64,000 nucleotides of DNA from Archivesica marissinica (lineage: Eukaryota > Mollusca > Bivalvia > Venerida > Vesicomyidae). Positions 8,029 to 61,123 of this stretch are shown piece by piece. Location of the stretch: NCBI GenBank assembly GCA_014843695.1, contig CM026403.1, positions 4,402,150 through 4,466,149 on the forward strand. Reading direction: 5' to 3'. Position 1 is the first letter of the stretch; each line of letters starts with the position of its first letter. A program made the translations under genes and the position numbers. Under the pieces are notes generated by a model, which was not told where the DNA came from, ran no database searches, and saw only the letters and a list, made by a program, of their open reading frames with translations.

Positions 8029-8054
8029 TCTCCAAGGAGGTTATACTTCCGTCT

Positions 8055-10004: not shown

Positions 10005-10250
10005 TTAACCCTTTCCCGCATAGAAGCACCTCTTGACGCCATTACCAATATGACATACATTGACAATGTAGTAAGTAGCCAAACCAATGTTCATAATAAA
10101 GGCCAGAATCTCATGTAGTCCCAGTAATATCTATAGAGGTGGGATTGATATGGCCACTACTTATCCACTGTATGATATAGCTAAATGGCTGTCGTTTGTA
10201 TGGAGATATAATAGTATATTAACCTAAATCTCTATGAAGGAAAGGGTTAA
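10005..10250. mobile_element. MITE-1, TTAA-flanked, single unexpanded copy
   Basis: A 246 bp element bounded by TTAA on both sides. The ends are imperfect inverted repeats: CCCTTTCCCGCATAGA on the left and TCTATGAAGGAAAGGG on the right. It has no coding capacity. A TTAA target and short terminal repeats are the hallmark of piggyBac-type transposition. The left 90 bp (GAAGCACCTCTTGACGCC ... CCAATGTTCATA) is the same sequence as the 85 bp repeat unit at 32-43 kb, here in one copy. The right half (AATAAAGGCCAGAATC ... TAACCTAAATC) is the same as the sequence that follows that array. Confidence 0.88.
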
Positions 10251-12964: not shown

Positions 12965-13595
12965 TTCCTTCAGACCTTTCCATCCACACACGGAGGCGGA
13001 CCATCAGTGATGATAGGTTACAGTGGTATACAAGTCAGCTACCTTCAGACCTCTCCACCCACACACGGAGGCGGACCATCAGTGATGATAGGTTACAGTG
13101 GTATACAAGTCAGCTACCTTCAGACCTCTCCACCCACACACGGAGGCGGACCATCAGTGATGATAGGTTACAGTGGTATACAAGTCAGCTACCTTCAGAC
13201 CTCTCCACCCACACACGGAGGCGGACCATCAGTGATGATAGGTTACAGTGGTATACAAGTCAGCTACCTTCAGACCTCTCCACCCACACACGGAGGCGGA
13301 CCATCAGTGATGATAGGTTACAGTGGTATACAAGTCAGCTACCTTCAGACCTCTCCACCCACACACGGAGGCGGACCATCAGTGATGATAGGTTACAGTG
13401 GTATACAAGTCAGCTACCTTCAGACCTCTCCACCCACACACGGAGGCGGACCATCAGTGATGATAGGTTACAGTGGTATACAAGTCAGCTACCTTCAGAC
13501 CTCTCCACCCACACACGGAGGCGGACCATCAGTGATGATAGGTTACAGTGGTATACAAGTCAGCGACCTTCAGACCTCTCCATCCACACACATTG
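12965..13595 (-). repeat. 75 bp array derived from the SINE-A tRNA head, 8 copies
   Basis: The unit contains CGGAGGCGGACCATCAGTGA, TGATAGGTTACAGTGGTATA and CAAGTCAGCTACCTTCAGAC. Most of it is the minus-strand head of SINE-A (compare 51681-51750), and the rest is CTCTCCACCCACACA. The inner copies are nearly identical. Because 75 is a multiple of 3 the array reads as a 199-residue open frame of 25-residue repeats. Orientation is given as that of the SINE head. Confidence 0.93.
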
Positions 13596-13659: not shown

Positions 13660-14649
13660 TTAAAGTGACATTACATCGCAAAAATGAAAACCAATATATG
13701 TGTTCACATATAAATTCTAAGCATAATGTTACTGCACATTCTTCTGAAATAATTCATTTTCATCAGTAATCAAAGTTATGCGAGCTACAAACTCGCAAAA
13801 ATAAAAGTATGAATTTCTCTTTCCCTCAAGTTCCTCTTTTATTTCACTCATTCACTCTCCCTCCAAACTCTTTCCCTCATGTAATTATATATTTATGAAC
13901 ACATTTGTAAAACATAATGTATAAACATGTATATACCCCAAACTATGTATACCGGTAATCAGTGTATGTTTTTGTTTTGTGTGTTTATATGTATAATTAA
14001 ACGAAAATAAAAGGAATATATAAAAAAATTGTTTTTAAAAAGGGCTAACATGACCCGGAAGTGGCATTTGTTAACCCATTTCATTCTGGATACCGTTCAA
14101 ACAGTATTTGCAAAGAACATAGAGCCAGATCAACGGCCACAGAACATGCCATCTGATCAGGCTCTATGCTGTTTGCTATTCACATGATCTTGCTAAGACA
14201 CTTGGCTATGTAGCAAACAACATAGATCCTGATCAGCATGCAACGTCACGCTGCGGCTGATCTGGATCTATGTTGTTTGCAAAAGCCTTTAAATGTATCC
14301 AGAATGAAATGGGTTAATATTACTCAATCCTACTAAATAGGGGAGGTAATCACATGATACTACTGATTAGATGTAGGTCAATTTAGATTACTCCGAAAAT
14401 AATTGAGTGTGAGACTAAACGGTAAATGAGCATGAAACATCTTTGTGATCATTGATAGCACAACTTTATTCATGATACAACATGCTGACTATCACGCATT
14501 ATTTTAGAGCTTCTTTAGAAAAATTTGTTATATCAACAAGTTTGTTTATTAGTTGAAATACTTCTGTGGCAAATATTGAGGTGGACAGTAGAATAGGAAA
14601 TTACATTCTATAGACATTTTCATTTTTCACCGATTTAGTGTCGCTTTAA
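13660..14649. mobile_element. MITE-3, long or composite copy, TTAA-flanked, interrupted by MITE-2
   Basis: The left end is TTAAAGTGACATTACATCGC and the right end, reversed, is TTAAAGCGACACTAAATC. These match the termini of the MITE-3 copies at 21440-22004 and 60783-61123. The inner part next to the right end also matches them (TAGTTGAAATACTTC, ATTTCCTATT reversed). The copy contains the MITE-2 insertion at 14071-14317. The outer limits rest on the termini, so this could also be two partial copies. Confidence 0.6.
14071..14317. mobile_element. MITE-2, TTAA-flanked, hairpin-rich
   Basis: A 247 bp element with TTAA at both ends and inverted termini: CCCATTTCATTCTGGATAC on the left and GTATCCAGAATGAAATGGG on the right. 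Inside are two further inverted pairs, CATAGAGCCAGATCA with TGATCAGGCTCTATG and CATAGATCCTGATCAG with CTGATCTGGATCTATG, so a strand could fold into two arms. It is non-coding. A second copy of the same length is at 30553-30799. Confidence 0.9.
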
Positions 14650-15232: not shown

Positions 15233-16132
15233 GACCATCAGTGATGATAGGTTACAGTGGTATACAAGTCAGCGACCGTAACCACTCGACCACGGAGGCG
15301 GACCATCAGTGATGATAGGTTACAGTGGTATACAAGTCAGCGACCGTAACCACTCGACCACGGAGGCGGACCATCAGTGATGATAGGTTACAGTGGTATA
15401 CAAGTCAGCGACCTTAACCACTCGACCACGGAGGCGGACCCGTGACCATCAGTGATGATAGGTTACAGTGGTATACAAGTCAGCGACCGTAACCACTCGA
15501 CCACGGAGGCGGACCATCAGTGATGATAGGTTACAGTGGTATACAAGTCAGCGACCGTAACCACTCGACCACGGAGGCGGACCATCAGTGATGATAGGTT
15601 ACAGTGGTATACAAGTCAGCGACCTAACCACTCGACCACGGAGGCGGACCATCAGTGATGATAGGTTACAGTGGTATACAAGTCAGCGACCGTAACCACT
15701 CGACCACGGAGGCGGACCATCAGTGATGATAGGTTACAGTGGTATACAAGTCAGCGACCTTATCCACTCGACCACGGAGGCGGACCCGTGACCATCAGTG
15801 ATGATAGGTTACAGTGGTATACAAGTCAGCGACCGTATCCACTCGACCACGGAGGCGGACCATCAGTGATGATAGGTTACAGTGGTATACAAGTCAGCGA
15901 CCTTATCCACTCGACCACGGAGGCGGACCATCAGTGATGATAGGTTACAGTGGTATACAAGTCAGCGACCTTATCCACTCGACCACGGAGGTGGACCATC
16001 AGTGATGATAGGTTACAGTGGTATACAAGTCAGCGACCTTATCCACTCGACCACGGAGGTGGACCATCAGTGATGATAGGTTACAGTGGTATACAAGTCA
16101 GCGACCTTATCCACTCGACCACGGAGGTGGAC
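15233..16132 (-). repeat. 68 bp array of SINE-A tRNA heads, about 13 copies
   Basis: The plus-strand unit is ACCATCAGTGATGATAGGTT, ACAGTGGTATACAAGTCAGC, GACCGTAACCACTCGACCAC, GGAGGCGG. Reversed, it is the 5' part of SINE-A: the A-box region TGGTCGAGTGGTTACGG and the anticodon-arm region GCTGACTTGTATACCAC. The B box is missing from most units. Three units carry an extra ACCCGTG, the edge of the B-box side. Copies differ mainly at GTAACC, CTTAACC or CTTATCC. Confidence 0.95.
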
Positions 16133-16135
16133 CCT

Positions 16136-21439: not shown

Positions 21440-22004
21440 TTAAAGCGACACTACATCAGTGAAAACGCAAATTTATACAGAATGTAATTTCCTATTATAT
21501 GGTATAATTTGTTTCCAAATATTTGCCTCAAAAATTGAGTATTTCAACTAATAAGCAAACGTCGTATACGCGGTTTGTTGACATAACAAGATAATGTAAA
21601 CAGGATCGACATACATGCGTAATACAACCTGTGTATCCCGAATAACGAGATGGTACAAATTTACCGTTATATCTCACATCTGTACCTATGCATATTTATT
21701 TGCAGACTAATCTTAGATAAATTTATTATCTCTAAGCGACAGTATCAAGTGCTTAGTATTGACTACAATGACAACGAAATGTCAATTCAGGAGCGTGGAT
21801 GACCGGCATATGAAATCCTACATTCACTTTTGAAAGTTTGTAGACCACAAAAACACTGTTTATTGATTCAATGTGTTCGAATGTACTCGGAAGAATTTAT
21901 AGTAGCAATGCATTTATACGCTAACAATGCATTTATACGCTAACAATGCATTTATACGCTAACAATGCATTGTTTTGGCTTTTTGCGATGTAATGTGGCT
22001 TTAA
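21440..22004. mobile_element. MITE-3, 565 bp, TTAA-flanked
   Basis: Starts TTAAAGCGACACTACATC and ends GCGATGTAATGTGGCTTTAA, so the termini are inverted repeats flanked by TTAA. The inside includes GTCGTATACGCGGTTTG, GATCGACATACATGCGTAAT and GAAAGTTTGTAGACCAC, all shared with the shorter copy at 60783-61123. Near the right end a 20 bp piece (CAATGCATTTATACGCTAA) is present in three tandem copies at about 21907-21967. No coding capacity. Confidence 0.88.
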
Positions 22005-28475: not shown

Positions 28476-28716
28476 TTAACCCTTTCAACACCACAGACCT
28501 CTAAATAGGCTTACAAAAAGTGTAGATCCAGATGAGCCGGCTCATGACGAGCCGTCTCATCAGGATCTGCACTTTTTGCCAGTGATATGACTATTTTTAG
28601 ACATAATTACCCATTTTGATAAATGAACTTGTCCAAATGTGATTTTCTGATTCATTTATTGGTTTATGAATATCATGGACCAGTCCATGTGAGTTACTTG
28701 GTGTTGAATGGGTTAA
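28476..28716. mobile_element. MITE-4, TTAA-flanked, with a strong hairpin
   Basis: A 241 bp element between TTAA sites. Left end CCCTTTCAACACCA; right end, reversed, CCCATTCAACACCA. Near the left side AAAAAGTGTAGATCCAGATG plus AGCCGGCTCATGA is followed by CGAGCCGTCTCATCAGGATC plus TGCACTTTTT, forming a long imperfect hairpin. Non-coding. An inverted copy is at 30997-31238. Confidence 0.9.
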
Positions 28717-30552: not shown

Positions 30553-30799
30553 TTAACCCATTTCATTCTGGATACCATTCAAACAGTATTTGCAAAGAAC
30601 ATAGAGCCAGATCAGCTGCCATGGAACGTTCCGTCTGATCAGGCTCTATGCTGTTTGCTATTCAGATGATCTTGCTAAGACACTTGGCTATGTAGCAAAC
30701 AACATAGATCCTGATCAGCATGCAGCGTCACGCTGCGGCTGATCTGGATCTATGTTGTTTGCAAAAGCCTTTAAATGTATTCAGAATGAAATGGGTTAA
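30553..30799. mobile_element. MITE-2, second copy, TTAA-flanked
   Basis: Same length (247 bp) and ends as 14071-14317: TTAACCCATTTCATTCTGG on the left and CAGAATGAAATGGGTTAA on the right. The inner arms are conserved with a small number of substitutions. Non-coding. Confidence 0.92.
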
Positions 30800-30996: not shown

Positions 30997-31238
30997 TTAA
31001 CCCATTCAACACCAAGTAACTGACATAGACTGGTCCATGACATTTTTACACCAATTAAATTAATAAGAAAATTACATTTGGATCAGTTCATTTATCAAAA
31101 TGGGTAAATTATTTTCTAAAAATTGTAATATTACTTGCAAAAAGTGCAGATCCTGATGAGACGGCTCATCACGAGCCGGCTCATCTGGATCTACACTTTT
31201 TTGTAAGCCTATTTAGTCTGTGGTGTTGAAAGGGTTAA
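30997..31238. mobile_element. MITE-4, second copy, opposite orientation, TTAA-flanked
   Basis: Starts TTAACCCATTCAACACCA and ends GTGGTGTTGAAAGGGTTAA. It is the reverse of 28476-28716, with the same GATCCTGATGAGACGGCTCA / GAGCCGGCTCATCTGGATC hairpin now on the right. Non-coding. Confidence 0.92.
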
Positions 31239-32182
31239 TTGTCTCCATTTTGAAATGGATTAGGGTAAGTGGCCAAATATTAATGGTGGCCAGCGCTAGG
31301 TGACCAGAGAGAACCAGTTCCCTATATTTAGCATTCAATAATCGCTTACCGTTATACACTTGGACTGTGAAACTGCATCTGTTATTTTAGACAATTATTA
31401 CATCCCAACTCACTACAACATGCATAATCCGTCTAAGCTATCACAACTGTAAACAATGCTTTTCCAAAGTCTAATTGCATGTTGGCATTGTTAAAAAAAA
31501 CACATACAATGCAATAATCACAATGCAAGAATTTGTTCCACCAAAACAAACTGCTTTGGAATGTGCAAAGTTATTTTGTGGCTGTTACAATGAGAGGAAG
31601 TAGCAAACACAATCTCTATTGATTTCCTGCTGCTACTTGACAGCCCTATTATTCCCCCCAGACAAAAGTGCTTATAAAGGAGCTGAAAAGTCTGATGAAT
31701 GATTTAATGACAGCGCCGTAAGGAGAGATCTTATATATAGAATTATAATCTTAAGTTATTAAATATACTAATTGTTTTATATATTAAACATGCAAGGTCA
31801 TATGCAAGGTCACATGCAAGGTCAAAGAAAGAACATGCTGTTTCTGGTCCTCTGGCTAGTCCTAAATGTTTGGTCTGTCGGTTCCCAGCTGTGGAGGGGT
31901 TCAGGAATTAAGTTTATGTTTAGATTTATGTAGCTTCATATACTAATTTAATGCAATGACGAAATATTTTGGTGGTAACAGGATAAAGGAAAAAAATCAT
32001 TTAAGTTTCCTTGTGAAACCAGTAACTCCAAGAGTAGAAATATCTTGTGCTTTATAAACACTCTGCACACATAGTTCTGTAGGATTTAATTAAACCTTGA
32101 TAGGTAAGGTCAAGGGATTTACTGGTAATGTGTCTCCTGTCTACATTGTGGCTAAAACAATCAATTACCTGTAAATATCCCA
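31239..32182. other. No feature recognised
   Basis: About 940 bp of unique AT-rich sequence. A short triplication of ATGCAAGGTCA lies near 31790-31825. No convincing exon. Confidence 0.3.
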
Positions 32183-32235
32183 CCATAAGTCGACCTTTTC
32201 ACATCTAGAAATGTGATGAAAGTAATATCTCCACT
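32183..32235 (-). repeat. Left arm of an inverted repeat that encloses the 11 kb array
   Basis: 53 bp that match the reverse complement of 43394-43446 with 3 differences by my alignment. Key pieces are GTCGACC, CACATCTAGAAATGTGAT and AGTAATATCTCCACT. MITE-1 begins directly after it at its TTAA. Confidence 0.85.
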
Positions 32236-35200
32236 TAACCCTTTCCCTCATAGAAGCCAATACCAATACGACATTCATTGACAATGTAGTAGCCAAACCA
32301 ATGTTCATAAACCCTTTCCCTCATAGAAACACCTCTTGATGCTAATACCAATACGACATTCATTGACAATGTAGTAGCCAAACCAATGTTCATAAACCCT
32401 TTCTCTCATAGAAACACCTCTTGACGCCAATACCAATACGACATTCATTGACAATGTAGTAGCCAAACCAATGTTCATAAACCCTTTCTCTCATAGAAGC
32501 ACCTCTTGACGCCAATACCAATACGACATTCATTGACAATGTAGTAGCCACACCAATGTTCATAAACCCTTTCCCTCATAGAAGCACCTCTTGACGCCAA
32601 TACCAATACGACATTCATTGACAATGTAGTAGCCACACCAATGTTCATAAACCCTTTCCCTCATAGAAACACCTCTTGATGCCAATACCAATACCACATT
32701 CATTGACAATGTAGTAGTCAAACCAATGTTCATAAACCCTTTCTCTCATAGAAACACCTCTTGACGCCAATACCAATACGACATTCATTGACAATGTAGT
32801 AGTCAAACCAATGTTCATAAACCCTTTCTCTCATAGAAACACCTCTTGACGCCAATACCAATATGACATTCATTGACAATGTAGTAGTCAAACCAATGTT
32901 CATAAACCCTTTCTCTCATAGAAACACCTCTTGACGCCAATACCAATACGACATTCATTGACAATGTAGTAGTCAAACCAATGTTCATAAACCCTTTCTC
33001 TCATAGAAACACCTCTTGACGCCAATACCAATACGACATTCATTGACAATGTAGTAGTCAAACCAATGTTCATAAACCCTTTCTCTCATAGAAACACCTC
33101 TTGACGCCAATACCAATACGACATTCATTGACAATGTAGTAGCCAAACCAATGTTCATAAACCCTTTCTCTCATAGAAACACCTCTTGACACCAATACCA
33201 ATACGACATACATTGACAATGTAGTAGCCAAACCAATGTTCATAAACCCTTTCCCTCATAGAAGCACCTCTTGACGCCAATACCAATACGACATTCATTG
33301 ACAATGTAGTAGCCAAACCAATGTTCATAAACCCTTTCTCTCATAGAAACACCTCTTGACACCAATACCAATACAACATACATTGACAATGTAGTAGCCA
33401 AACCAATGTTCATAAACCCTTTCTCTCATAGAAACACCTCTTGACACCAATACCAATACGACATACATTGACAATGTAGTAGCCAAACCAATGTTCATAA
33501 ACCCTTTCCCTCATAGAAGCACCTCTTGACGCCAATACCAATACGACATTCATTGACAATGTAGTAGCCAAACAATGTTCATAAACCCTTTCTCTCATAG
33601 AAACACCTCTTGACGCCAATACCAATACGACATTCATTGACAATGTAGTAGCCAAACAATGTTCATAAACCCTTTCTCTCATAGAAACACCTCTTGACGC
33701 CAATACCAATACGACATACATTGACAATGTAGTAGCCAACCAATGTTCATAAACCCTTTCCCTCATAGAAGCACCTCTTGACGCCAATACCAATACGACA
33801 TACATTGACAATGTAGTAGCCACACCAATGTTCATAAACCCTTTCCCTCATAGAAGCACCTCTTGACGCCAATACCAATACGACATACATTGACAATGTA
33901 GTAGCCACACCAATGTTCATAAACCCTTTCCCTCATAGAAGCACCTCTTGACGCCAATACCAATACGACATACATTGACAATGTAGTAGCCAAACCAATG
34001 TTCATAAACCCTTTCCCTCATAGAAGCACCTCTTGACACCAATACCAATACGACATACATTGACAATGTAGTAGCCAAACCAATGTTCATAAACCCTTTC
34101 CCTCATAGAAGCACCTCTTGACACCAATACCAATACGACATTCATTGACAATGTAGTAGCCAAACCAATGTTCATAAACCCTTTCCCTCATAGAAGCACC
34201 TCTTGACACCAATACCAATACGACATACATTGACAATGTAGTAGCCAAACCAATGTTCATAAACCCTTTCCCTCATAGAAGCACCTCTTGACGCCAATAC
34301 CAATACGACATTCATTGACAATGTAGTAGCCAAACCAATGTTCATAAACCCTTTCCCTCATAGAAACACCTCTTGACACAACACCAATACGACATTCATT
34401 GACAATGTAGTAGCCAAACCAATGCTCATAACCCTTTCCCTCATAGAAGCACCTCTTGACACCAATACCAATACGACATTCATTGACAATGTAGTAGCCA
34501 AACCAATGTTCATAAACCCTTTCTCTCATAGAAACACCTCTTGACGCCAATACCAATACGACATTCATTGACAATGTAGTAGCCAAACCAATGTTCATAA
34601 ACCCTTTCCCTCATAGAAGCACCTCTTGACGCCAATACCAATACGACATTCATTGACAATGTAGTAGCCAAACCAATGTTCATAAACCCTTTCCCTCATA
34701 GAAGCACCTCTTGACGCCAATACCAATACGACATTCATTGACAATGTAGTAGCCACACCAATGTTCATAAACCCTTTCCCTCATAGAAGCACCTCTTGAC
34801 GCCAATACCAATACGACATTCATTGACAATGTAGTAGTCAAACCAATGTTCATAAACCCTTTCTCTCATAGAAACACCTCTTGACGCCAATACCAATACG
34901 ACATTCATTGACAATGTAGTAGTCAAACCAATGTTCATAAACCCTTTCCCTCATAGAAACACCTCTTGACGCCAATACCAATACGACATTCATTGACAAT
35001 GTAGTAGCCAAACCAATGTTCATAAACCCTTTCTCTCATAGAAACACCTCTTGACGCCAATACCAATACGACATTCATTGACAATGTAGTAGCCAAACCA
35101 ATGTTCATAAACCCTTTCTCTCATAGAAACACCTCTTGACGCCAATACCAATACGACATTCATTGACAATGTAGTAGCCAAACCAATGTTCATAAACCCT

Positions 35201-38200
35201 TTCTCTCATAGAAACACCTCTTGACGCCAATACCAATACGACATACATTGACAATGTAGTAGCCAAACCAATGTTCATAAACCCTTTCTCTCATAGAAAC
35301 ACCTCTTGACGCCAATACCAATACGACATTCATTGACAATGTAGTAGCCAAACAATGTTCATAAACCCTTTCCCTCATAGAAACACCTCTTGACGCCAAT
35401 ACCAATACGACATACATTGACAATGTAGTAGCCAAACAATGTTCATAAACCCTTTCTCTCATAGAAACACCTCTTGACGCCAATACCAATACGACATTCA
35501 TTGACAATGTAGTAGCCAAACAATGTTCATAAACCCTTTCTCTCATAGAAACACCTCTTGACGCCAATACCAATACGACATACATTGACAATGTAGTAGC
35601 CAAACAATGTTCATAAACCCTTTCTCTCATAGAAACACCTCTTGACGCCAATACCAATACGACATTCATTGACAATGTAGTAGCCAAACAATGTTCATAA
35701 ACCCTTTCTCTCATAGAAACACCTCTTGACGCCAATACCAATACGACATACATTGACAATGTAGTAGCCAAACAATGTTCATAAACCCTTTCTCTCATAG
35801 AAACACCTCTTGACGCCAATACCAATACGACATTCATTGACAATGTAGTAGCCAAACCAATGTTCATAAACCCTTTCCTCATAGAAACACCTCTTGACGC
35901 CAATACCAATACGACATTCATTGACAATGTAGTAGTCAAACCAATGTTCATAAACCCTTTCTCTCATAGAAACACCTCTTGACGCCAATACCAATACGAC
36001 ATTCATTGACAATGTAGTAGTCAAACCAATGTTCATAAACCCTTTCTCTCATAGAAACACCTCTTGACGCCAATACCAATACGACATTCATTGACAATGT
36101 AGTAGCCAAACCAATGTTCATAAACCCTTTCCCTCATAGAAACACCTCTTGACACCAATACCAATACGACATACATTGACAATGTAGTAGCCAAACCAAT
36201 GTTCATAAACCCTTTCCCTCATAGAAGCACCTCTTGACGCCAATACCAATACGACATTCATTGACAATGTAGTAGCCAAACCAATGTTCATAAACCCTTT
36301 CTCTCATAGAAACACCTCTTGACACCAATACCAATACGACATACATTGACAATGTAGTAGCCAAACCAATGTTCATAAACCATTTCTCTCATAGAAACAC
36401 CTCTTGACACCAATACCAATACGACATACATTGACAATGTAGTAGCCAAACCAATGTTCATAAACCCTTTCCCTCATAGAAGCACCTCTTGACGCCAATA
36501 CCAATACGACATTCATTGACAATGTAGTAGCCAAACCAATGTTCATAAACCCTTTCTCTCATAGAAACACCTCTTGACGCCAATACCAATACGACATTCA
36601 TTGACAATGTAGTAGCCAAACAATGTTCATAAACCCTTTCCTCATAGAAGCACCTCTTGACGCCAATACCAATACGACATACATTGACAATGTAGTAGCC
36701 AAACAATGTTCATAAACCCTTTCTCTCATAGAAACACCTCTTGACGCCAATACCAATACGACATTCATTGACAATGTAGTAGCCAAACAATGTTCATAAA
36801 CCCTTTCCCTCATAGAAGCACCTCTTGACACCAATACCAATACGACATACATTGACAATGTAGTAGCCACACCAATGTTCATAAACCCTTTCCCTCATAG
36901 AAGCACCTCTTGACACCAATACCAATACGACATACATTGACAATGTAGTAGCCACACCAATGTTCATAAACCCTTTCCCTCATAGAAGCACCTCTTGACG
37001 CCAATACCAATACGACATTCATTGACAATGTAGTAGCCAAACCAATGTTCATAAACCCTTTCCCTCATAGAAACACCTCTTGACGCCAATACCAATACGA
37101 CATTCATTGACAATGTAGTAGCCAAACCAATGTTCATAAACCCTTTCCCTCATAGAAGCACCTCTTGACACCAATACCAATACGACATTCATTGACAATG
37201 TAGTAGCCAAACCAATGTTCATAAACCCTTTCCCTCATAGAAGCACCTCTTGACACCAATACCAATACGACATTCATTGACAATGTAGTAGCCAAACCAA
37301 TGTTCATAAACCCTTTCCCTCATAGAAGCACCTCTTGACGCCAATACCAATACGACATTCATTGACAATGTAGTAGCCAAACCAATGTTCATAAACCCTT
37401 TCCCTCATAGAAGCACCTCTTGACACCATACCAATACGACATTCATTGACAATGTAGTAGCCAAACCAATGTTCATAAACCCTTTCCCTCATAGAAGCAC
37501 CTCTTGACACCAATACCAATACGACATTCATTGACAATGTAGTAGCCAAACCAATGTTCATAAACCCTTTCCCTCATAGAAGCACCTCTTGACACCAATA
37601 CCAATACGACATTCATTGACAATGTAGTAGCCAAACCAATGTTCATAAACCCTTTCCCTCATAGAAGCACCTCTTGACGCCAATACCAATACGACATTCA
37701 TTGACAATGTAGTAGCCACACCAATGTTCATAAACCCTTTCCCTCATAGAAGCACCTCTTGACGCCAATACCAATACGACATTCATTGACAATGTAGTAG
37801 CCAAACCAATGTTCATAAACCCTTTCCCTCATAGAACCTCTTGACGCCAATACCAATACGACATTCATTGACAATGTAGTAGCCAAACCAATGTTCATAA
37901 ACCCTTTCCCTCATAGAAGCACCTCTTGACGCCAATACCAATACGACATTCATTGACAATGTAGTAGCCAAACCAATGTTCATAAACCCTTTCCCTCATA
38001 GAAGCACCTCTTGACACCAATACCAATACGACATTCATTGACAATGTAGTAGCCAAACCAATGTTCATAAACCCTTTCCCTCATAGAAACACCTCTTGAC
38101 ACCAACACCAATACGACATTCATTGACAATGTAGTAGCCAAACCAATGTTCATAAACCCTTTCCCTCATAGAAGCACCTCTTGACGCCAATACCAATACG

Positions 38201-41200
38201 ACATTCATTGACAATGTAGTAGCCAAACCAATGTTCATAAACCCTTTCCCTCATAGAAGCACCTCTTGACGCCAATACCAATACGACATTCATTGACAAT
38301 GTAGTAGCCAAACCAATGTTCATAAACCCTTTCCCTCATAGAAGCACCTCTTGACACCAATACCAATACGACATTCATTGACAATGTAGTAGCCAAACCA
38401 ATGTTCATAAACCCTTTCCCTCATAGAAGCACCTCTTGACACCAATACCAATACGACATTCATTGACAATGTAGTAGCCAAACCAATGTTCATAAACCCT
38501 TTCCCTCATAGAAGCACCTCTTGACACCAATACCAATACGACATTCATTGACAATGTAGTAGCCAAACCAATGTTCATAAACCCTTTCCCTCATAGAAGC
38601 ACCTCTTGACACCAATACCAATACGACATTCATTGACAATGTAGTAGCCAAACCAATGTTCATAAACCCTTTCCCTCATAGAAACACCTCTTGACACCAA
38701 TACCAATACGACATTCATTGACAATGTAGTAGCCAAACCAATGTTCATAAACCCTTTCCCTCATAGAAGCACCTCTTGACGCCAATACCAATACGACATT
38801 CATTGACAATGTAGTAGCCAAACCAATGTTCATAAACCCTTTCCCTCATAGAAGCACCTCTTGACGCCAATACCAATACGACATTCATTGACAATGTAGT
38901 AGCCAAACCAATGTTCATAAACCCTTTCCCTCATAGAAGCACCTCTTGACACCAATACCAATACGACATTCATTGACAATGTAGTAGCCAAACCAATGTT
39001 CATAAACCCTTTCCCTCATAGAAGCACCTCTTGACACCAATACCAATACGACATTCATTGACAATGTAGTAGCCAAACCAATGTTCATAAACCCTTTCCC
39101 TCATAGAAACACTTCTTGACACCAATACCAATACGACATTCATTGACAATGTAGTAGCCACACCAATGTTCATAAACCCTTTCCCTCATAGAAGCACCTC
39201 TTGCCACCAATACCAATACGACATTCATTGTCAATGTAGTAGCCAAACCAATGTTCATAAACCCTTTCCCTCATAGAAACACCTCTTGACACCAATACCA
39301 ATACGACATTCATTGACAATGTAGTAGCCAAACCAATGTTCATAAACCCTTTCCCTCATAGAAGCACCTCTTGACACCAATACCAATACGACATTCATTG
39401 ACAATGTAGTAGCCAAACCAATGTTCATAAACCCTTTCCCTCATAGAAACACTTCTTGACACCAATACCAATACGACATTCATTGACAATGTAGTAGCCA
39501 CACCAATGTTCATAAACCCTTTCCCTCATAGAAGCACCTCTTGCCACCAATACCAATACGACATTCATTGTCAATGTAGTAGCCAAACCAATGTTCATAA
39601 ACCCTTTCCCTCATAGAAACACCTCTTGACACCAATACCAATACGACATTCATTGACAATGTAGTAGCCAAACCAATGTTCATAAACCCTTTCCCTCATA
39701 GAAGCACCTCTTGACGCCAATACCAATACGACATTCATTGACAATGTAGTAGCCAAACCAATGTTCATAAACCCTTTCCCTCATAGAAGCACCTCTTGAC
39801 ACCAATACCAATACGACATTCATTGACAATGTAGTAGCCAAACCAATGTTCATAAACCCTTTCCCTCATAGAAACACCTCTTGACACCAACACCAATACG
39901 ACATTCATTGACAATGTAGTAGCCAAACCAATGTTCATAAACCCTTTCCCTCATAGAAACACCTCTTGACGCCAATACCAATACGACATTCATTGACAAT
40001 GTAGTAGCCAAACCAATGTTCATAAACCCTTTCCCTCATAGAAGCACCTCTTGACGCTAATACCAATACGACATTCATTGACAATGTAGTAGCCAAACCA
40101 ATGTTCATAAACCCTTTCCCTCATAGAAACACCTCTTGACACCAATACCAATACGACATTCATTGACAATGTAGTAGCCAAACCAATGTTCATAAACCCT
40201 TTCCCTCATAGAAGCACCTCTTGACACCAATACCAATACGACATTCATTGACAATGTAGTAGCCAAACCAATGTTCATAAACCCTTTCCCTCATAGAAAC
40301 ACCTCTTGACACCAACACCAATACGACATTCATTGACAATGTAGTAGCCAAACCAATGTTCATAACCCTTTCCCTCATAGAAGCACCTCTTGACGCCAAT
40401 ACCAATACGACATTCATTGACAATGTAGTAGCCAAACCAATGTTCATAAACCCTTTCCCTCATAGAAGCACCTCTTGACGCCAATACCAATACGACATTC
40501 ATTGACAATGTAGTAGCCAAACCAATGTTCATAAACCCTTTCCCTCATAGAAGCACCTCTTGACACCAATACCAATACGACATTCATTGACAATGTAGTA
40601 GCCAAACCAATGTTCATAAACCCTTTCCCTCATAGAAGCACCTCTTGACGCCAATACCAATACGACATTCATTGACAATGTAGTAGCCAAACCAATGTTC
40701 ATAAACCCTTTCCCTCATAGAAGCACCTCTTGACGCCAATACCAATACGACATTCATTGACAATGTAGTAGCCAAACCAATGTTCATAAACCCTTTCCCT
40801 CATAGAAGCACCTCTTGACGCCAATACCAATACGACATTCATTGACAATGTAGTAGCCAAACCAATGTTCATAAACCCTTTCCCTCATAGAAACACCTCT
40901 TGACACCAATACCAATACGACATACATTGACAATGTAGTAGCCAAACCAATGTTCATAAACCCTTTCCCTCATAGAAGCACCTCTTGACGCCAATACCAA
41001 TACGACATACATTGACAATGTAGTAGCCAAACCAATGTTCATAAACCCTTTCCCTCATAGAACACCTCTTGACGCCAATATGACATACATTGACAATGTA
41101 GTAGCCAAACCAATGTTCATAAACCCTTTCCCTCATAGAAGCACCTCTTGACGCCATACCAATACGACATACATTGACAATGTAGTAGCCAAACCAATGT

Positions 41201-43389
41201 TCATAAACCCTTTCCCTCATAGAAGCACCTCTTGACCCATACCAATACGACATACATTGACAATGTAGTAGCCAAACCAATGTTCATAAACCCTTTCCCT
41301 CATAGAAGCACCTCTTGACGCCATACCAATACGACATACATTGACAATGTAGTAGCCAAACCAATGTTCATAAACCCTTTCCCTCATAGAAGCACCTCTT
41401 GACGCCAATACCAATACGACATACATTGACAATGTAGTAGCCAAACCAATGTTCATAAACCATTTCCCTCATAGAAGCACCTCTTGACGCCAATACCAAT
41501 ACGACATACATTGACAATGTAATAGCCAAACCAATGTTCATAAACCCTTTCCCTCATAGAAGCACCTCTTGACGCCAATACGACATACATTGACAATGTA
41601 GTAGCCAAACCAATGTTCATAAACCCTTTCCCTCATAGAAGCACCTCTTGACACCAATACGACATACATTGACAATGTAGTAGCCAAACCAATGTTCATA
41701 AACCCTTTCCCTCATAGAAGCACCTCTTGACGCCATTACCAATACGACATACATTGACAATGTAGTAGCCAAACCAATGTTCATAAACCCTTTCCCTCAT
41801 AGAAACACCTCTTGACGCAATACGACATTCATTGACAATGTAGTAGCCAAACCAATGTTCATAAACCCTTTCCCTCATAGAAGCACCTCTTGACACCAAT
41901 ACGACATACATTGACAATGTAGTAGCCAAACCAATGTTCATAAACCCTTTCCCTCATAGAAGCACCTCTTGACGCCATTACCAATACGACATACATTGAC
42001 AATGTAGTAGCCAAACCAATGTTCATAAACCCTTTCCCTCATAGAAGCACCTCTTGACACCAATACCAATACGACATTCATTGACAATGTAGTAGCCAAA
42101 CCAATGTTCATAAACCCTTTCCCTCATAGAAACACCTCTTGACACCAATACCAATACGACATACATTGACAATGTAGTAGCCAAACCAATGTTCATAAAC
42201 CCTTTCCCTCATAGAAGCACCTCTTGACGCCAATACCAATACGACATACATTGACAATGTAGTAGCCAAACCAATGTTCATAAACCCTTTCCCTCATAGA
42301 AGCACCTCTTGACGCCAATATGACATACATTGACAATGTAGTAGCCAAACCAATGTTCATAAACCCTTTCCCTCATAGAAACACCTCTTGACACCAATAC
42401 GACATACATTGACAATGTAGTAGCCAAACTAATGTTCATAAACCCTTTCCCTCATAGAGGCACCTCTTGACACCAATACGACATACATTGACAATGTAGT
42501 AGCCAAACCAATGTTCATAAACCCTTTCCCTCATAGAAGCACCTCTTGACGCAATACGACATACATTGACAATGTAGTAGCCAAACCAATGTTCATAAAC
42601 CCTTTCCCTCATAGAAGCACCTCTTGACGCCAATACCAATACGACATACATTGACAATGTAGTAGCCAAACCAATGTTCATAAACCATTTCCCTCATAGA
42701 CGCACCTCTTGACGCCAATACCAATACAACATACATTGACAATGTAATAGCCAAACCAATGTTCATAAACCCTTTCCCTCATAGAAGCACCTCTTGACGC
42801 CAATACGACATACATTGACAATGTAGTAGCCAAACCAATGTTCATAAACCCTTTCCCTCATAGAAGCACCTCTTGACACCAATACGACATACATTGACAA
42901 TGTAGTAGCCAAACCAATGTTCATAAACCCTTTCCCTCATAGAAGCACCTCTTGACGCCATTACCAATACGACATACATTGACAATGTAGTAGCCAAACC
43001 AATGTTCATAAACCCTTTCCCTCATAGAAACACCTCTTGACGCCAATACGACATTCATTGACAATGTAGTAGCCAAACCAATGTTCATAAACCCTTTCCC
43101 TCATAGAAGCACCTCTTGACACCAATACGACATACATTGACAATGTAGTAGCCAAACCAATGTTCATAAACCCTTTCCCTCATAGAAGCACCTCTTGACG
43201 CCATTACCAATACGACATACATTGACAATGTAGTAGCCAAACCAATGTTCATAAACCCTTTCCCTCATAATAAAGGCCAGAATCCCATGTAGTCCAAGCA
43301 ATATCCACTGCATGATAGCTAAATGGTTGTCGTTTGTATGGAGATATTATAGTATATTAACCTAAATCTCTATGAAGGAAATGGGTCAA
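32235..43389. mobile_element. MITE-1 copy expanded from about 0.25 to 11.2 kb by internal tandem amplification
   Basis: The left terminus TTAACCCTTTCCCTCATAGA is at 32235. The right part after the array (AATAAAGGCCAGAATCCCAT ... TATTAACCTAAATCTCTATG, AAGGAAATGGGTCAA) ends at 43389 and matches the right half of the 246 bp copy at 10005-10250. The right target site reads TCAA, one substitution from TTAA. Between the ends lie about 130 copies of the left 85 bp. The element therefore kept its boundaries while its inside grew by a factor of about 45. Confidence 0.88.
32237..43272. repeat. 85 bp minisatellite, about 130 copies
   Basis: The unit is AACCCTTTCCCTCATAGAAG, CACCTCTTGACGCCAATACC, AATACGACATTCATTGACAA, TGTAGTAGCCAAACCAATGT, TCATA. 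The first copy lacks the 12 bp CACCTCTTGACG. Variant blocks run along the array: TTCTCTC with AAACACC in the left third, ATACATTG (not ATTCATTG) on the right, and shortened units lacking an ACCAAT-type stretch from about 41060 onward. Because 85 is not a multiple of 3, the frames close after about three units, which explains the many 80-250 codon open frames on the minus strand. Confidence 0.98.
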
Positions 43390-43393
43390 AAAA

Positions 43394-43692
43394 AGTGGAG
43401 ATATTACTTCCATCACATTTCTAGATGTGAAACGGTCGACCTATGGTCGGATATATTTACATTATTTAAGTGGAGACATTACTTCCATCACATTTCTAGA
43501 TGTGAAACGGTCGACCTATGGGGATATATTTACATTATTTAAGTGGAGACATTACTTCCATCACATTTCTAGATGTGAAACGGTCGACCTATGGGGATAT
43601 ATTTACATTATTTAAGTGGAGATATTACTTCCATCACATTTCTAGATGTGAAACGGTCGACCTATGGTCGGATATATTTACATTTATTTAAT
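43394..43692. repeat. 73-75 bp repeat, 4 copies, made from the right arm of the inverted repeat
   Basis: The unit is AGTGGAGATATTACTTCCAT, CACATTTCTAGATGTGAAAC, GGTCGACCTATGG and GATATATTTACATTATTTA. The first copy is the inverted partner of 32183-32235; three more follow at spacings of 75, 73 and 73 bp. Each unit has an internal palindrome CACATTTCTAGATGTG. Confidence 0.93.
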
Positions 43693-44026
43693 CACCTGAC
43701 CTGTGCTAACAAACTTATGTATTTACCTGTACTTGAGCAGTAGGTTTTACAGAATACTGTGCAAATGTATTTAGGACAAATTGTGGTAATTCAATAAATT
43801 TATTAGATCATTTATTGGATAAATGATACAGGTCTACCATAACACGCTTATTAAATATTTATTTGACAATTATTTACATCATAGATCATAGAAACAGCTG
43901 ATACACAAACCTCATAAATCACTGCATTTTTACTGATTTATGATGGAATAAAGTCAGCTAGATATCTCAAATTGAGCCCAGTTTCTTTCAAAAATGAGAA
44001 AGTTATTGTCATAACAAACATCATAA
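43693..44026. other. No feature recognised
   Basis: Unique AT-rich spacer between two arrays. Confidence 0.3.
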
Positions 44027-44785
44027 GTCCACAAGGTATCCTCGACTTATGGAAGTCCACAAGGTACCCTCGACCTATGGAAGTCCACAAGGTACCCTCG
44101 ACCTATGGAAGTCCACAAGGTACCCTCGACTTATGGAAGTCCACAAGGTACCCTCGACCTATGGAAGTCCACAAGGTACCCTCGACTTATGGAAGTCCAC
44201 AAGGTACCCTCGACTTATGGAAGTCCACAAGGTACCCTCGACTTATGGAGGTCCACAAGGTACCCTCGACCTATGGAAGTCCACAAGGTACCCTCGACAA
44301 CTTATGGAAGTCCACAAGGTACCCTCGACTTATGGAAGTCCACAAGGTACCCTCGACTTATGTAAGTCCACAAGGTACCCTCGACTTATGGAAGTCCACA
44401 AGGTACCCTAGACTTATGGAAGTCCACAAGGTACCCTAGACCTATGGAAGTCCACAAGGTACCCTCGACCTATGGAAGTCCACAAGGTACCCTCGACCTA
44501 TGGAAGTCCACAAGGTACCCTCGACTTATGGAATCCACAAGTACCCTCGACTTATGGAAGTCCACAAGGTACCCTCGACCTATGGAAGTCCACAAGGTAC
44601 CCTCGACTTAGGGAAGTCCACAAGGTACCCTCAACTTATGGAAGTCCACAAGGTATCCTCGACTTATGGAAGTCCACAAGGTACCCTAGACTTATGGAAG
44701 TCCACAAGGTACCCTCGACTTATGGAAGTCCACAAGCTACCCTCGACTTATGGAAGTCCACAAGGTACCCTCGACTTATGGAAGG
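44027..44785. repeat. 28 bp minisatellite, about 27 copies
   Basis: The unit is TATGGAAGTCCACAAGGTAC plus CCTCGACT (or CC, or CTAGACT). It is open in all three plus frames for about 90-155 codons, an artefact of the 28 bp period. Confidence 0.97.
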
Positions 44786-44814
44786 ATCCAGCTTAAAATC
44801 AGCATTTCAAGCCA

Positions 44815-45170
44815 AAACTTGACCGGATTGACTTATGGCCGGATCGACTTATGGGCGGATCGACTTATGGCCGAAATCGACATATGGCTATGATAGACTT
44901 ATGCCTGAGATCAACTTATGGCTGAGATCAACTTATGTCTGAGATCAACTTATGGCTGAGATCAACTTATGGCCGAAATCGACATATGGCTAAGATCGAC
45001 TTATAGCTGAGATCAACTTATAGCTGAGATCAACTTATAGCTGAGATCAACTTATGGCTGAGATCAACTTATAGCTGAGATCAACTTATAGCTGAGATCA
45101 ACTTATAGCTGAGATCAACTTATGCCTGAGATCAACTTATGGCTGAGATCAACTTATGGTCGGGTATATA
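44815..45170. repeat. 17 bp minisatellite, about 20 copies, degenerate left end
   Basis: The unit is GAGATCAACTTATGGCT with AGCT and CCT variants. The left end reads CGGATCGACTTATGGCCGG. It shares the core TCGACTTATGG with the arrays to its left. Confidence 0.92.
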
Positions 45171-51572: not shown

Positions 51573-51680
51573 GTTATTAAATCAAAGATGCGTAAGTGTA
51601 AACTGATTTATTAATATCAATACATGTAAAACTTATAAGTGTGATAAGACAGTATGCCACTCAGACCCTCCCCGACAGTG

Positions 51681-51908
51681 GTCGAGTGGTTAAGGTCGCT
51701 GACTTGTATACCACTGTAACCTATCATCACTGATGGTCACGGGTTCATTTATATGAACAAGTTGGCAGTTTCTTACGGAGGTTGGTGCACCCAAGTACTG
51801 GTTAACCGCTGGAGCCCAGGAAAGGTGGTGTTAAGTAAACTGCCCGCCGGCGATATAGCCCGAAATGGTGCTGATGCAGGCGTAAAACCCGAAATATAAC
51901 ATAACAGA
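51681..51908 (+). mobile_element. SINE-A, full length, alternate tail, 16 bp target-site duplication
   Basis: Head GTCGAGTGGTTAAGGTCGCT (A box) and GACTTGTATACCACTG, then GGTCACGGGTTCAT (B box, slightly damaged). Body GGAGGTTGGTGCACCCAAGT. The tail is GCCGGCGATATAGCCCGAAA with GCGTAAAACCCGAAATATAA, not the tail used by the copy at 1011-1254. Flanks 51665-51680 and 51909-51924 are the identical 16 bp ACCCTCCCCGACAGTG. The first bases of the head may be shared with the duplication. Confidence 0.93.
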
Positions 51909-53476: not shown

Positions 53477-54429
53477 TATGTGAGGTGAAACAATAATCAG
53501 CTGTCTTGCTTGTGTTATGCTTGCACTGTGTATTGTGTAAAACAGTCAAACATAACATGTCGTTTTGGTAGTATCTTTCAAAATGGCGGCCATCTTGAAT
53601 CATGGCCATTTTGAAAGTGTATGCATTGGTATTGAGGAGTTGTACTTTAAAACAGGCAGGCAAAGCATACATACTGATTTATTTAGATGCATTCCTGTTC
53701 GTTCAGTGGTTGGTAATTTATTGCCTGATGAAAGAATGAGTGTGCTCCCTGTACATTGTCCAACAGGCTGCAACGCGTGTTAATCGGGAAGAAAAGGTAT
53801 TTTATGTAATGTCAAACCATGCTGAGCAACTTTCTGATCTCTCAGATCTTGGTAAAACACCATGTCACCTCAAGCAAAATATTCAGCTGTTGTCTTTGTT
53901 GTGTTGCTATATGCTTCTAACCACTGCTCGTCTTTGAATACCTTGCGGAAAAAATAGTGTACTCGAACATTAATAATGTTATTCACTGTTAAAACTCTCC
54001 CGTCGAAGATTTTTGTTGTTGCTGACAGAACCCGTGTCCTAGTATGGAAATGTGACCTGCTATGGCCAATGTCTGTGGCAATTGTTTGCAAAGTATACAT
54101 GCACGCAGCTTAAAGTTGTGTTTTATTTGAAAAACAATATAAAGACTCGTGATAGGCGTTATATTTGGATAGATTTGTACAAAATTGTTTCAGATAGGGC
54201 CATTTTACTGATCGATGCGAAATCTGACATCCCACAGAGTAGAATCCCTGTACTTAAATATATATACTAGTACCCCCAAACGTGCCGAATCCCTGTGTAC
54301 AGATATACAAAACATGCAATCCTTGGACTAGAACAAAGTCTGTTTATATATGACTTAGCATCCGGATCTAATTACTGCCAATTTCTCTTTTTAACAGGCT
54401 AACAATTTTTCAACAAACGTGTGTGTTTC
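53477..54429. other. No feature recognised
   Basis: Unique stretch upstream of the LINE. Short open frames at 53565-53937 and 54052-54270 have no recognisable domain and overlap each other on both strands. Confidence 0.3.
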
Positions 54430-54473
54430 ACGTTTATTTATCGTCGCTACCGGTTACCCATTTGATCGACGCC
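54430..54473 (-). mobile_element. SINE tail fragment fused to the 5' end of the LINE
   Basis: Reversed: GGCGTCGATCAAATGGGTAA, CCGGTAGCGACGATAAATAA, ACG. This is the tail shared by SINE-A (1011-1254) and SINE-E. It ends where the truncated LINE sequence starts. Confidence 0.8.
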
Positions 54474-54475
54474 TC

Positions 54476-55246
54476 GTAATCTTTGGTAATCTACTTGTTG
54501 ATCTAATGATCAGAAATCAGTTGATCGCTTTAGACGGCTTAGATTTATGCACCGGTGCGCTTTACAGTAATGTACCGTATAACAGTACTCGAGAAACTCT
54601 CGTGGATCACATTTTAATATTTGAAAATGATGTAAACTATATTCAATCGTGTTCGATTCTAGACGATAATTGTCTAAATGTCTCAAATCATCGCCCGATT
54701 CTTTGTACGTTGACAATGCCACTGAGTGAAAGCATACAAGGTTTAAGTACTAATAGCATAATAAATTGGAAAAATGTTAAACCTTATTGCGTTGAAAAAT
54801 TCGCTCTACAATTAAATAATGACGATAGGTTAAAAGTGGGGCTATATATGGATATTTCCTTGACAAGCGATATCGATGAACTCTACTATATAATTGTAAA
54901 TGCTATACAGTCGGCGTCGGATCAATGCATTCCGAAATCTAAATTTAAACCGTACATCAAACCATATTGGAACAACGAACTGACTCATCTTCATAAAAAA
55001 ATGCAAACTAAAAGAATTAAGTGGTTATCTGAAAATCGTCCAAGAAATTCAGAATCATTAAGTTATACGGAATACAAACGATGTAAAGCATTATTTAGAA
55101 ACTGTCATCGAAATATAGTACAACAATTCATTGAGGGGCTAGAAAAAGAAATCGATACAGCCGCCGAAATAGACAGTAATGAATTTTGGCGCTTAGTTAA
55201 TAAAGGGAGAAAACAGCGTAATAAATCCGCAGTTTTCGAAAATGAA
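54476..55246 (+). pseudogene. LINE ORF2 part 1: endonuclease C-terminus and linker
   Basis: Encodes the last part of an APE endonuclease: an LIALDGLDLCTGAL stretch, VDHILIF at about 54600, and SNHRPIL at about 54680. In this family the last motif is normally SDH; here Asp is replaced by Asn beside the catalytic His. The linker includes KPYWNNELTHLHKKM and SNEFWRLVNKGRKQ, typical of the region before the RT fingers. The frame is lost near 55247 by a one-base change, and reading continues in the next frame. No start codon of its own. Confidence 0.82.
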
Positions 55247-56066
55247 TTTTGGCGGGAAAACGTACAACAATCCCGATGATATAAACCGTTGTTGGCGTGA
55301 TTATTTTGCAGATCTTTACACGCCAACGTGTAACGTCGAATTTGATGACGACTATTTGATAGGTCGCTCGGTTGACTTACAAACTATTAATTCGGATTCG
55401 TGTATACATAATTTTAATATTGTCCATATCGATGAATCAATCGTTCGAAAACAGCTACGCCATTGTAAAAATGGAAAAGCGTGCGGATATGATCGCGTTA
55501 ATTATGAACATGTTAAACATGGGGGAGATTTACTTATAAGTGTAATCACCAAACTTTTCCAGAAAATGTCCGAATTTTGCTATATACCGATTAATCTAAA
55601 AAAAGGTGTCATATCAACACTTTATAAAGGCGGTAAAAAGCGAAAGAATGATCCAAACAGTTATCGGGCATTATCTTTATGTTCAAATATTTTAAAGTTA
55701 TACGAAAAGGTCATATCGAATGCTATTGAAAGTAACAACAGTTTTCAAGTAAATGCCTTACAAGGTGGTTTCCAGAAAAAGATTAGTTGTACTATGACAT
55801 CATTTGTATTGCGTGAAAGCATTCATTTTGCAAAAGAAAATAACTCCAAATTATATTCATGTTTTTTGGACGTCCGTCAAGCATTTGACAGAGTTACCCA
55901 TGCTCTGCTTATGCTTAAACTTCACAAAATAGTAAATTATCAAATGTATAAAATAATATCCAACATGCTCAACAATGTACAGAGTTGTGTTAGGACTCGA
56001 GGAATTACATCCGAATGGTTCAATGTTGAGCAAGGAACACGACAAGGTCAATGTATCAGCCCATGG
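55247..56066 (+). pseudogene. LINE ORF2 part 2: reverse transcriptase fingers and palm
   Basis: Continues in a second frame: INRCWRDYFADLY, then KNGKACGYDRVNYEH (RT motif 1-like), LKKGVISTLYKGG, NSYRALSLCSNILKLYEKV (motif 2), and the palm motif A FLDVRQAFDRV at 55863-55895 with the first catalytic Asp. Motif B is EQGTRQGQCISPWL at about 56030-56066. A second one-base change at about 56068 (in CTTTTATTT) moves reading to the third frame. Confidence 0.88.
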
Positions 56067-57453
56067 CTTTTATTTAATTTTCGTCAATGATCTGATGAAC
56101 GAAATTGCTTCGTCGAAATACTGTTTGAATATACATGATACTTGTTACGGATGTCCAACTCATGCTGACGACATGGTGCTACTATCTTGCTCCAAATCTG
56201 GTCTAGAAAAATTAATTGATATATGCTATACAAATTCTACAAAAGAACGGTACATGTATAATGCTGGTAAATGTAGCGTAATTGTATTCAACGAGACAGA
56301 AGGTGATTTTAAAAATAGTTCTAGAAATTGGAAGTTAGGTAGTACATCAGTGGAGGAATCTGAATCTTATGTTCATTTAGGGGTAAATTGTAATAAGTAC
56401 TTGAATCTTGATGATAATATTAAGCAAGCCTGTTCAAAAATACGCAAACCATTCTTTAACATGGCCGACTTCGGTGTGCACAGAAATGGTTTACACCCGC
56501 TATCAATAAAACACCTATATCAATCAATTGTTCTATCAAAGGCATTGTTCGGGTGTGAACTATGGTGTAACATGTCTGAAGCTCAATTACAGTCCCTTGA
56601 AAGAGTGCATCGCCAATGTATTAAATTCATGCAATCAATGCCACGATGTACACGGACGGATATTGCGTTAGGTTGTATTGGTGCTCTCTCGCTTGAACAA
56701 GAGATCGATAAGCGGAAGCTCTTATTTTTCGGTCAATTATGTAATATGGATGTTAAAAAGAGTGCTAAAGTCTTATTTTTCACTCGACTTATGCAATTCA
56801 AAATTAAACCTAGTAAAACATTGGGATATATACAAGACCTATATCGTATTTTGGGGAAATATGGTCTAGGAAGTTATTTTTACAATTTTATAAACACTGC
56901 TATATTTCCAAGTGTTGTTACCTGGAAAACTATAGTCAACAAGTATGTATACAATTATGCAAACCTTCAATACAGGACACATTTAATTAGTGATGATACA
57001 TTACAAAGCTTTTTAAGTATACACGGTGAGCTGATCCCATGTAGTCTATGGCGTTTTAGCCAACTATATCGTAATTATTTACCATATTGTAGGACAGTTA
57101 TTTTGATGGCTAGTAAACTGTTTAGCAGACCATATGCAATGATATGTCCAAACTGTAAACTCGTAACGGACTCCATAGCAATCCATCTGGTATTGTTTTG
57201 TCGAGTAAACGACGCTACCAGACAAAATATGTGGAATAGTTTTCATAACTCTCTGGGACATGATACCTATACTAGCCTCACTAATATGTATTATAGAGAT
57301 CAAATTATTGAAATGTTATCCGGATTTTCAACTTTAATTATGAGTGAGTCACAGAGAGTGCAATGTTTCAAATTAATGTTAAGATATATGCATCATTTAG
57401 CAAAATGCTTGGAACTATTTATTAATGTAATATACCCTTACAAACTGGGTTGA
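56067..57453 (+). pseudogene. LINE ORF2 part 3: RT motif C, thumb and C-terminal zinc motif
   Basis: Begins with the residues after motif B (LIFVNDLMNEI), then HADDMVLLS at about 56160-56185 with the two catalytic Asp of motif C. The thumb region includes YNAGKCSVIVF and SESYVHLGVNC, followed by LYQSIVLSKALFGCELW. Near the end CPNC ... H ... C at 57148-57201 has the spacing C-X2-C-X9-H-X4-C, the zinc knuckle usual at the C-terminus of several LINE clades. It closes with a TGA at 57451-57453. No stop inside. Confidence 0.88.
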
Positions 57454-60782: not shown

Positions 60783-61123
60783 TTAAAGCGACACTACATC
60801 AATGAAAATGCAAATTTCTGCAGAATTGTAATGTCCTATTATATGGTATAGTCGTATACGCGGTTTGTTTACATAACAAAATAATGTACATAGGGTCGAC
60901 ATCCATGCGTAATACATCGCGTGTATCCTGAATAACACGATATGTACAGATTTATCGTTATATGAAATCGTACTTTCAATTTTGAAAGTTTGTAGACCAC
61001 ACATACACTGTTTATTGATTCAATGTTAGCGTTCGAAAGTATTCGCAAGAATTTGTAGTAGCAATGCATTTACACGTGAAAAATGCATTTTTTTTGGCTT
61101 TTTGCGATGTAATGTGGCTTTAA
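60783..61123. mobile_element. MITE-3, 341 bp copy, TTAA-flanked
   Basis: Ends TTAAAGCGACACTACATCAA and GCGATGTAATGTGGCTTTAA. Relative to 21440-22004 it has lost parts of the middle but keeps GTATACGCGGTTTGTTTACA and GAAAGTTTGTAGACCACA. Non-coding. Confidence 0.88.

Follow-up and report, generated by a model that had tools for sequence, protein, structure and literature searches.

An 85-bp tandem array between the ends of a TTAACCC-type transposable element in the bivalve Archivesica marissinica

A 64,000-nucleotide stretch of the genome of the vesicomyid bivalve Archivesica marissinica (NCBI GenBank assembly GCA_014843695.1, contig CM026403.1, positions 4,402,150 to 4,466,149 of the forward strand; hereafter the window, numbered from its first letter) contains a long tandem array of an 85-bp unit related to a miniature inverted-repeat transposable element (MITE), here MITE-1. 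We consider it probable that this array, lying between the ends of one TTAACCC-type MITE, grew in place after a copy of the left tip of the element had produced a pair of 16-bp repeats. A preliminary description of the window had already proposed amplification inside the boundaries of the MITE, and this is the best and a likely reading, since units and right part are collinear with an unexpanded copy, the unit boundaries share one junction form, the right side of the array retains ancestral letters and the flanks form inverted arms. The features concerned are collected in Table 1.

Table 1. Coordinates of the expanded MITE-1 element, its parts, its flanks and its unexpanded relative within the window.
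Feature	Position	Strand	Remarks
Unexpanded MITE-1 copy (M1)	10005..10250	+	246 bp, TTAA on both sides, no internal copy of the 16-bp repeat r
Left flank arm	32170..32238	-	Inverted relative to the right flank arm
Expanded MITE-1 element	32235..43389	+	11,155 bp, including the left TTAA and the right TCAA
Left terminus, TTAA and left tip	32235..32252	+	First copy of r at 32237-32252
85-bp array	32235..43269	+	131 units, then a 17-bp closing stub; overall form (rX)n r
Right 2.2 kb of the array	41043..43252	+	Units nearest to the unexpanded MITE; shorter-unit types lie here
Closing copy of r	43254..43269	+	Joined at TCATA to the MITE right part
MITE-1 unique right part and right inverted repeat	43270..43389	+	Lacks 34 bp of M1; an additional base in the inverted repeat; TCAA
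Right flank arm	43393..43691	+	73-bp array of four units; internal boundaries TTTAAG

Structure of the expanded element

Arrays were called with Tandem Repeats Finder, which reports 130.8 copies of the 85-bp unit at 32256-43269 with 96% matches and 1% indels. Cutting the sequence by wrap-around alignment yields 131 units from 32235, mostly 85 bp in length and belonging to 52 distinct types, with a first unit that is 12 bp short. The last piece, a 17-bp closing stub at 43253-43269, is a partial unit that abuts the right part of the MITE directly. As preliminarily described, the array begins with the MITE left terminus at a TTAA (32235-32238). The further claim that it closes with the right part of the MITE is upheld by a collinear BLAST match, but needs qualification: the right target site reads TCAA (43386-43389), an additional base lies in the right inverted repeat, and compared with M1 the right part is shorter by 34 bp plus a further 2 bp. 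It had been considered that this right half might be a separate, full MITE-1 copy; this is not what was found, a single right part being seen and the array body (32239-43268) containing no TTAA.

The unexpanded copy reported earlier was recovered: TTAA borders it at either end, and its inverted tips (TTAACCCTTTCC) agree in 18 of 22 letters. BLAST shows it to be the only other MITE-1 copy in the window, and MITE-1 is thus seen here in two copies only, unexpanded at 10005 versus 131 units at 32235; a second 85-bp array was not found in the 64-kb window by BLAST of M1. Positions 3-92 of M1 (twice 2-92) align in register with 79-87 bp stretches of the array, and a single match of M1 3-243 to 43169-43386 (E 1.77e-39) crosses from the last unit into the right part. 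The unit had been said to equal the left 85 bp of MITE-1. It is homologous and in register, but not equal, as whole units are 83.3-93.3% identical to M1 by BLAST and the two differ by a 4-bp insertion in M1 and several substitutions. An array between both ends of an element, a feature of the miDNA4 and Tetris kind discussed below, is found at 32235-43389.

The form of the junctions is informative. The repeat r, AACCCTTTCCCTCATA, is 16 bp long and is the MITE's own tip; it occurs exactly at 32237, in the left terminus, and at 43254, in the closing stub, while M1 has it once, at the left end and with one mismatch. Hence the same short repeat bounds the array on both sides, giving the (rX)n r form expected of a minisatellite founded by short direct repeats. 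Among the 131 unit boundaries (closing stub included), 126 read GTTCATAAACCCTT, three carry one substitution inside r and two lack one A. One junction form is therefore shared by 129 of 131 boundaries, which points to the foundation of the array by one event. The closing r runs straight into the right part, TCATA being followed by ATAAAGG where M1 reads GTTCATAATAAAGG. This places the closing point on TCATA, a word common to the left tip and the interior of the MITE.

Units are not distributed evenly along the array. Relative to M1, consecutive bins of 13 units average 5.69, 4.77, 5.23, 5.46, 4.69, 4.77, 5.92, 4.69, 2.54 and 3.0 substitutions, and the single last unit has 2. Position and substitutions against M1 correlate with a Spearman coefficient of -0.48 (nominal p 8e-9, the units not being independent). 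An M1-like T at column 36 is present in 4/131 units (41700, 41942, 42925 and 43168), all to the right of 41,043, and the full units that are 6-7 bp shorter (n=13) are confined to 41043-43089. The measure of neighbouring-unit likeness is 0.033 against a minimum of 0.043 over 5,000 random orders, neighbours thus being more alike than in any of these, and four exact blocks of 3-4 units recur, both as expected of local duplication. The pattern fits a spread of derived units by repeated local duplication, with older forms retained at the right edge.

The flanks of the element are themselves inverted copies of each other (91.3% over 69 bp) that meet at the element; hence its 11,155 bp lie between inverted arms. 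The right arm starts 3 bp past the TCAA, within an A run. An abutting-arm score of 48 was obtained at the element compared to a best score of 6 among 430 TTAA sites, the real pair representing the best of 10 offsets and the control sites one offset each. No copies of the arms were found in the window outside the array locus. Either the MITE entered a TTAA at the centre of a palindrome, or a flank was later copied in inverted orientation across the MITE. Between the 73-bp unit of the right arm and the 28-bp and 17-bp arrays at 44025-45159 only 11-12 letters are shared, and we claim no relation.

MITE-1 itself is a TTAACCC-type MITE and is probably piggyBac-like. Transposons of the piggyBac superfamily target TTAA and have short inverted ends that start with CCC after the TTAA. 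We infer the label from the fit of target and CCC ends to this pattern, no piggyBac transposase having been found in the four reading frames scanned with Pfam; the superfamily may instead be Kolobok, which also uses TTAA. M1 displays several features of a piggyBac-like MITE, namely a TTAA duplication, CCC-type inverted ends and a short, non-coding body. Two further TTAACCC MITE families are present with two copies each, one at 14071-14317 and 30553-30799 (ends TTAACCCATTTCATTC), the other at 28476-28716 and 30997-31238 (TTAACCCTTTCAACACC at one end, TTAACCCATTCAACACC at the other). Counting M1, five unexpanded copies are present, each 241-247 bp long and bordered by TTAA at either end; a single one of the six TTAACCC elements recognised in the window is expanded. 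For the chance expectation, sequence was simulated 200 times with a first-order Markov model of the window minus the array, and TTAACCC...GGGTTAA pairs 60-800 bp apart were counted in a scan that is blind to copies with decayed ends. The simulations gave a mean of 0.155 pairs and a maximum of 2, compared to six in the window: the five MITE copies (241-247 bp) and one pair whose ends belong to separate copies. Nine exact TTAACCC sites occur, of which three (9370, 19394 and 58672) are without a partner. Many units of a 32-bp array at 6768-8029 contain GGGTTAA, resembling a right MITE end plus TTAA; no TTAACCCTGTTTGTTC-like site that could serve as its left partner was found with up to three substitutions allowed.

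Origin of the array and alternative explanations

The observations can be brought together in a model of four steps. The MITE would first have inserted at a TTAA between two inverted arms. In the course of replication or repair, a strand would then have copied the interior as far as TTCATA, jumped to the MITE terminus, taken 16 bp from there and re-entered the interior at the 5-bp word TCATA common to both, leaving r-X-r. Slippage or unequal exchange between the copies of r, and later between whole units, could have extended this to 131 units, local duplications spreading derived types while the right 2.2 kb kept older forms. Finally, the right terminus would have decayed, so that the element is now probably fixed in place. 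A minisatellite route in which short direct repeats flank the future unit before slippage or unequal exchange sets in is reviewed in PMC6947457, and in the Haber-Louis model described there the array is, as here, bounded by a short repeat on both sides.

Slippage between two TCATA words was rejected as the sole origin, because it predicts a unit of ~69 bp rather than 85: the unit holds an extra 16-bp tip, as counted on the consensus. Templated copying of the tip into the interior would account, in one event, for the extra tip as well as for the closing on TCATA. The same structure could also have arisen if the entire left part had been duplicated in tandem and the last unit had then lost 69 bp between its two TCATA words.

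Several points weigh against growth in place by this route. The founding r-X-r of the 85-bp array is not seen, M1 as the sole other copy in the window carrying r a single time. For the jump into the terminus the two sequences agree over just ~1 bp, which is weak for a template switch, and the order of duplication plus deletion involves two events, as does the template-switch order. No old unit forms occur at the left edge, which does not mirror the right. The trend in substitutions is a step and not a smooth slope, and its p value of 8e-9 treats related units as independent. In addition, the decayed right terminus would fit just as well if the expanded element had transposed once before the decay set in.

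The last point bears on mobility. Present movement of the expanded element is unlikely judging from its termini, since the right TTAA and the right inverted repeat are damaged; the element may have moved in the past when already expanded. It is possible to go further and suppose that the MITE expanded elsewhere, inserted here with its long array ready-made and lost the integrity of its right end afterwards. The inverted arms that meet at the element ends are in keeping with this, as they indicate a precise insertion whatever the size of the element at the time. However, the five unexpanded TTAACCC copies in the window all measure 241-247 bp, the window has no second 85-bp array, and similar unit types lie near one another, as growth at a single place would produce. 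Furthermore, a model from Xenopus, as cited in an oyster paper (PMC7492417), has repeat number inversely related to mobility. We therefore regard insertion of a ready-made satellite as unlikely.

The single junction form and the length of the array would also follow if an extrachromosomal array, formed as circular DNA or by rolling circle, had recombined into a resident MITE-1 copy, and rolling circle is among the satellite mechanisms reviewed in PMC12628747. This route predicts fairly even units; the left-right difference and local clustering seen here make it very unlikely. At least as improbable is an origin from adjacent insertions of two MITE-1 copies at a single TTAA, with deletion and unequal exchange giving the first tandem pair. 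Repeated insertion into one target site is a route described in PMC12628747, and the array unit does start at a transposon terminus, but there is neither a second right part nor a TTAA inside the array body, and the closing r requires an additional event. Long near-identical arrays are difficult to assemble, and the number of units may be off; an assembly artefact is nevertheless extremely unlikely to account for the array, given 52 distinct unit types in non-random order and clear edges on both sides.

Growth in place thus remains our preferred reading, and the array is most likely selfish or neutral DNA caught in the change from transposon to satellite. Nothing was found that would suggest a host function, and no Rfam match reached the gathering score in the window. 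A transposase-binding role for the repeated tips was considered, extra binding sites having been discussed for Tetris (PMC4079207), and was not adopted. Open reading frames inside the array are taken as by-products, one frame being repeated since 3 x 85 = 255.

Other arrays and elements in the window

A smaller array offers a comparison for the founding step. At 61063-61089 two copies of an 8-bp repeat, AATGCATT, enclose one 11-bp spacer, and at 21907-21971 the repeat is present four times. The two loci are copies of one dispersed element, the former in r-X-r form and the latter expanded into a 19-bp array, and the case shows an r-X-r precursor beside the grown form. The 68-bp unit of the array at 15233-16134 derives from the 5' head of an element resembling a short interspersed nuclear element (SINE). 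This unit begins at the 5' end of the copy at 1011-1254 (minus strand), which is flanked by an exact 23-bp direct repeat. The 5' end of the SINE-like element is not uniform, as a second copy (near 51660-51849) starts ~8 bp further in. The element contains motifs, seen by eye, that we take to be tRNA-like boxes; ARAGORN finds no tRNA in it. Located 1.6 kb from the 68-bp array, a 75-bp array at 12967-13591 has a unit made up of the 68-bp array's junction (GGTCCGCCTCCG) and other sequence, and by its composition looks like a second-generation array.

Unit starts at or near element ends are seen in the 85-bp array (MITE terminus), the 68-bp array (SINE-like 5' end) and the 73-bp array at 43393-43691 (TTAA beside the MITE). 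A flank test was applied to 32 arrays, 31 of them with flanks, using the best seven matches per query. Within these matches, the 19-bp array and the MITE array alone had a second copy in which unit and flank follow each other in the same order; hence most arrays of the window were not shown to sit in a dispersed element. It is doubtful that copying of a free or stalled transposon terminus into the element's own interior, giving r-X-r, is a general route from transposons to arrays in this genome.

Tandem arrays make up ~53% of the window (34,194/64,000 bp in 33 intervals, the 85-bp array being trimmed at its edges), mostly with different units. Broken reverse transcriptase frames lie at 54419-57453, with Pfam RVT_1 in 55242-56087, and the fragment at 55975-57453 has 41% identity to a Mya arenaria protein, one among 17 matches. 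An open frame of 435 aa at 1235-2542 on the minus strand has four relatives at 36-43% identity, including a Ruditapes philippinarum protein (43% over 72%), and is possibly an exon of a host gene. Both named proteins accord with a bivalve origin of the window. The 85-bp unit gave 0 matches in each of the viral and prokaryote contig collections, which the nature of these collections makes little telling.

Relation to known transposon-borne arrays

Arrays born from MITEs and from terminal inverted repeats (TIRs) have been described, and the kind of element reported here is therefore already known. None of the titles among the literature matches listed concerns a TTAA or piggyBac MITE with such an array, which is not proof of absence. 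A close parallel is Tetris/TIR-220, a foldback transposon of Drosophila virilis, described in PMC4079207 as a non-autonomous DNA transposon with tandem units inside terminal inverted repeats, as here. According to that account, its units are thought to stem from a duplicated piece of the inverted repeat, fibre-FISH (fluorescence in situ hybridisation on DNA fibres) revealed long arrays flanked by element ends, and satellite-like arrays reach up to 66 copies. Tetris differs in transposon type and in its ~220-bp unit; the element described here has 131 units, with both ends readable at base level.

Two Xenopus systems treated in PMC12628747 and PMC9659126 are likewise comparable. The miDNA4 MITE has an internal array with short direct repeats flanking the satellite, a variable array length and a proposed later loss of the MITE ends. 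In contrast to the present case, where the unit is the MITE's own terminal segment, miDNA4 is a Tc1/mariner element for which capture of a pre-existing repeat is proposed. The Xstir arrays derive from the Xmix MITE and include MITE-array composites, their source being given as the TIR in PMC9659126; they belong to another MITE family, and the route proposed for them is a different one, through a hybrid of two nearby elements.

In bivalves, the Pearl-type elements DTC84 and CvA (PMC5139131) are non-autonomous and contain internal tandem repeats as here, but these satellite-like repeats are of another origin. A survey of the Pacific oyster reported 14,591 arrays with monomers of 100-500 bp, the longest holding 29.3 monomers (PMC7492417). 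The 131 units seen here are far more, but the 85-bp unit lies outside the surveyed size range. BrickBuilt of Porphyromonas gingivalis (PMC4596501) is also a minisatellite within a MITE with inverted ends; it differs in being bacterial, with a 23-nucleotide unit and 19 occurrences in one strain.

How a dispersed transposon turns into a long tandem array must as a rule be reconstructed from many loci. In the present window both ends, an unexpanded relative and the repeated junction can be read together with the closing repeat and the older forms at the right edge. Because all these parts are readable together, the order of events can be tested at one site across individuals and sister species. 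The 131-unit element is probably a new, large case of the known transposon-to-satellite route, in which the founding event is unusually readable, and it provides a base-level example whose units far outnumber those of the short arrays borne by oyster transposons.

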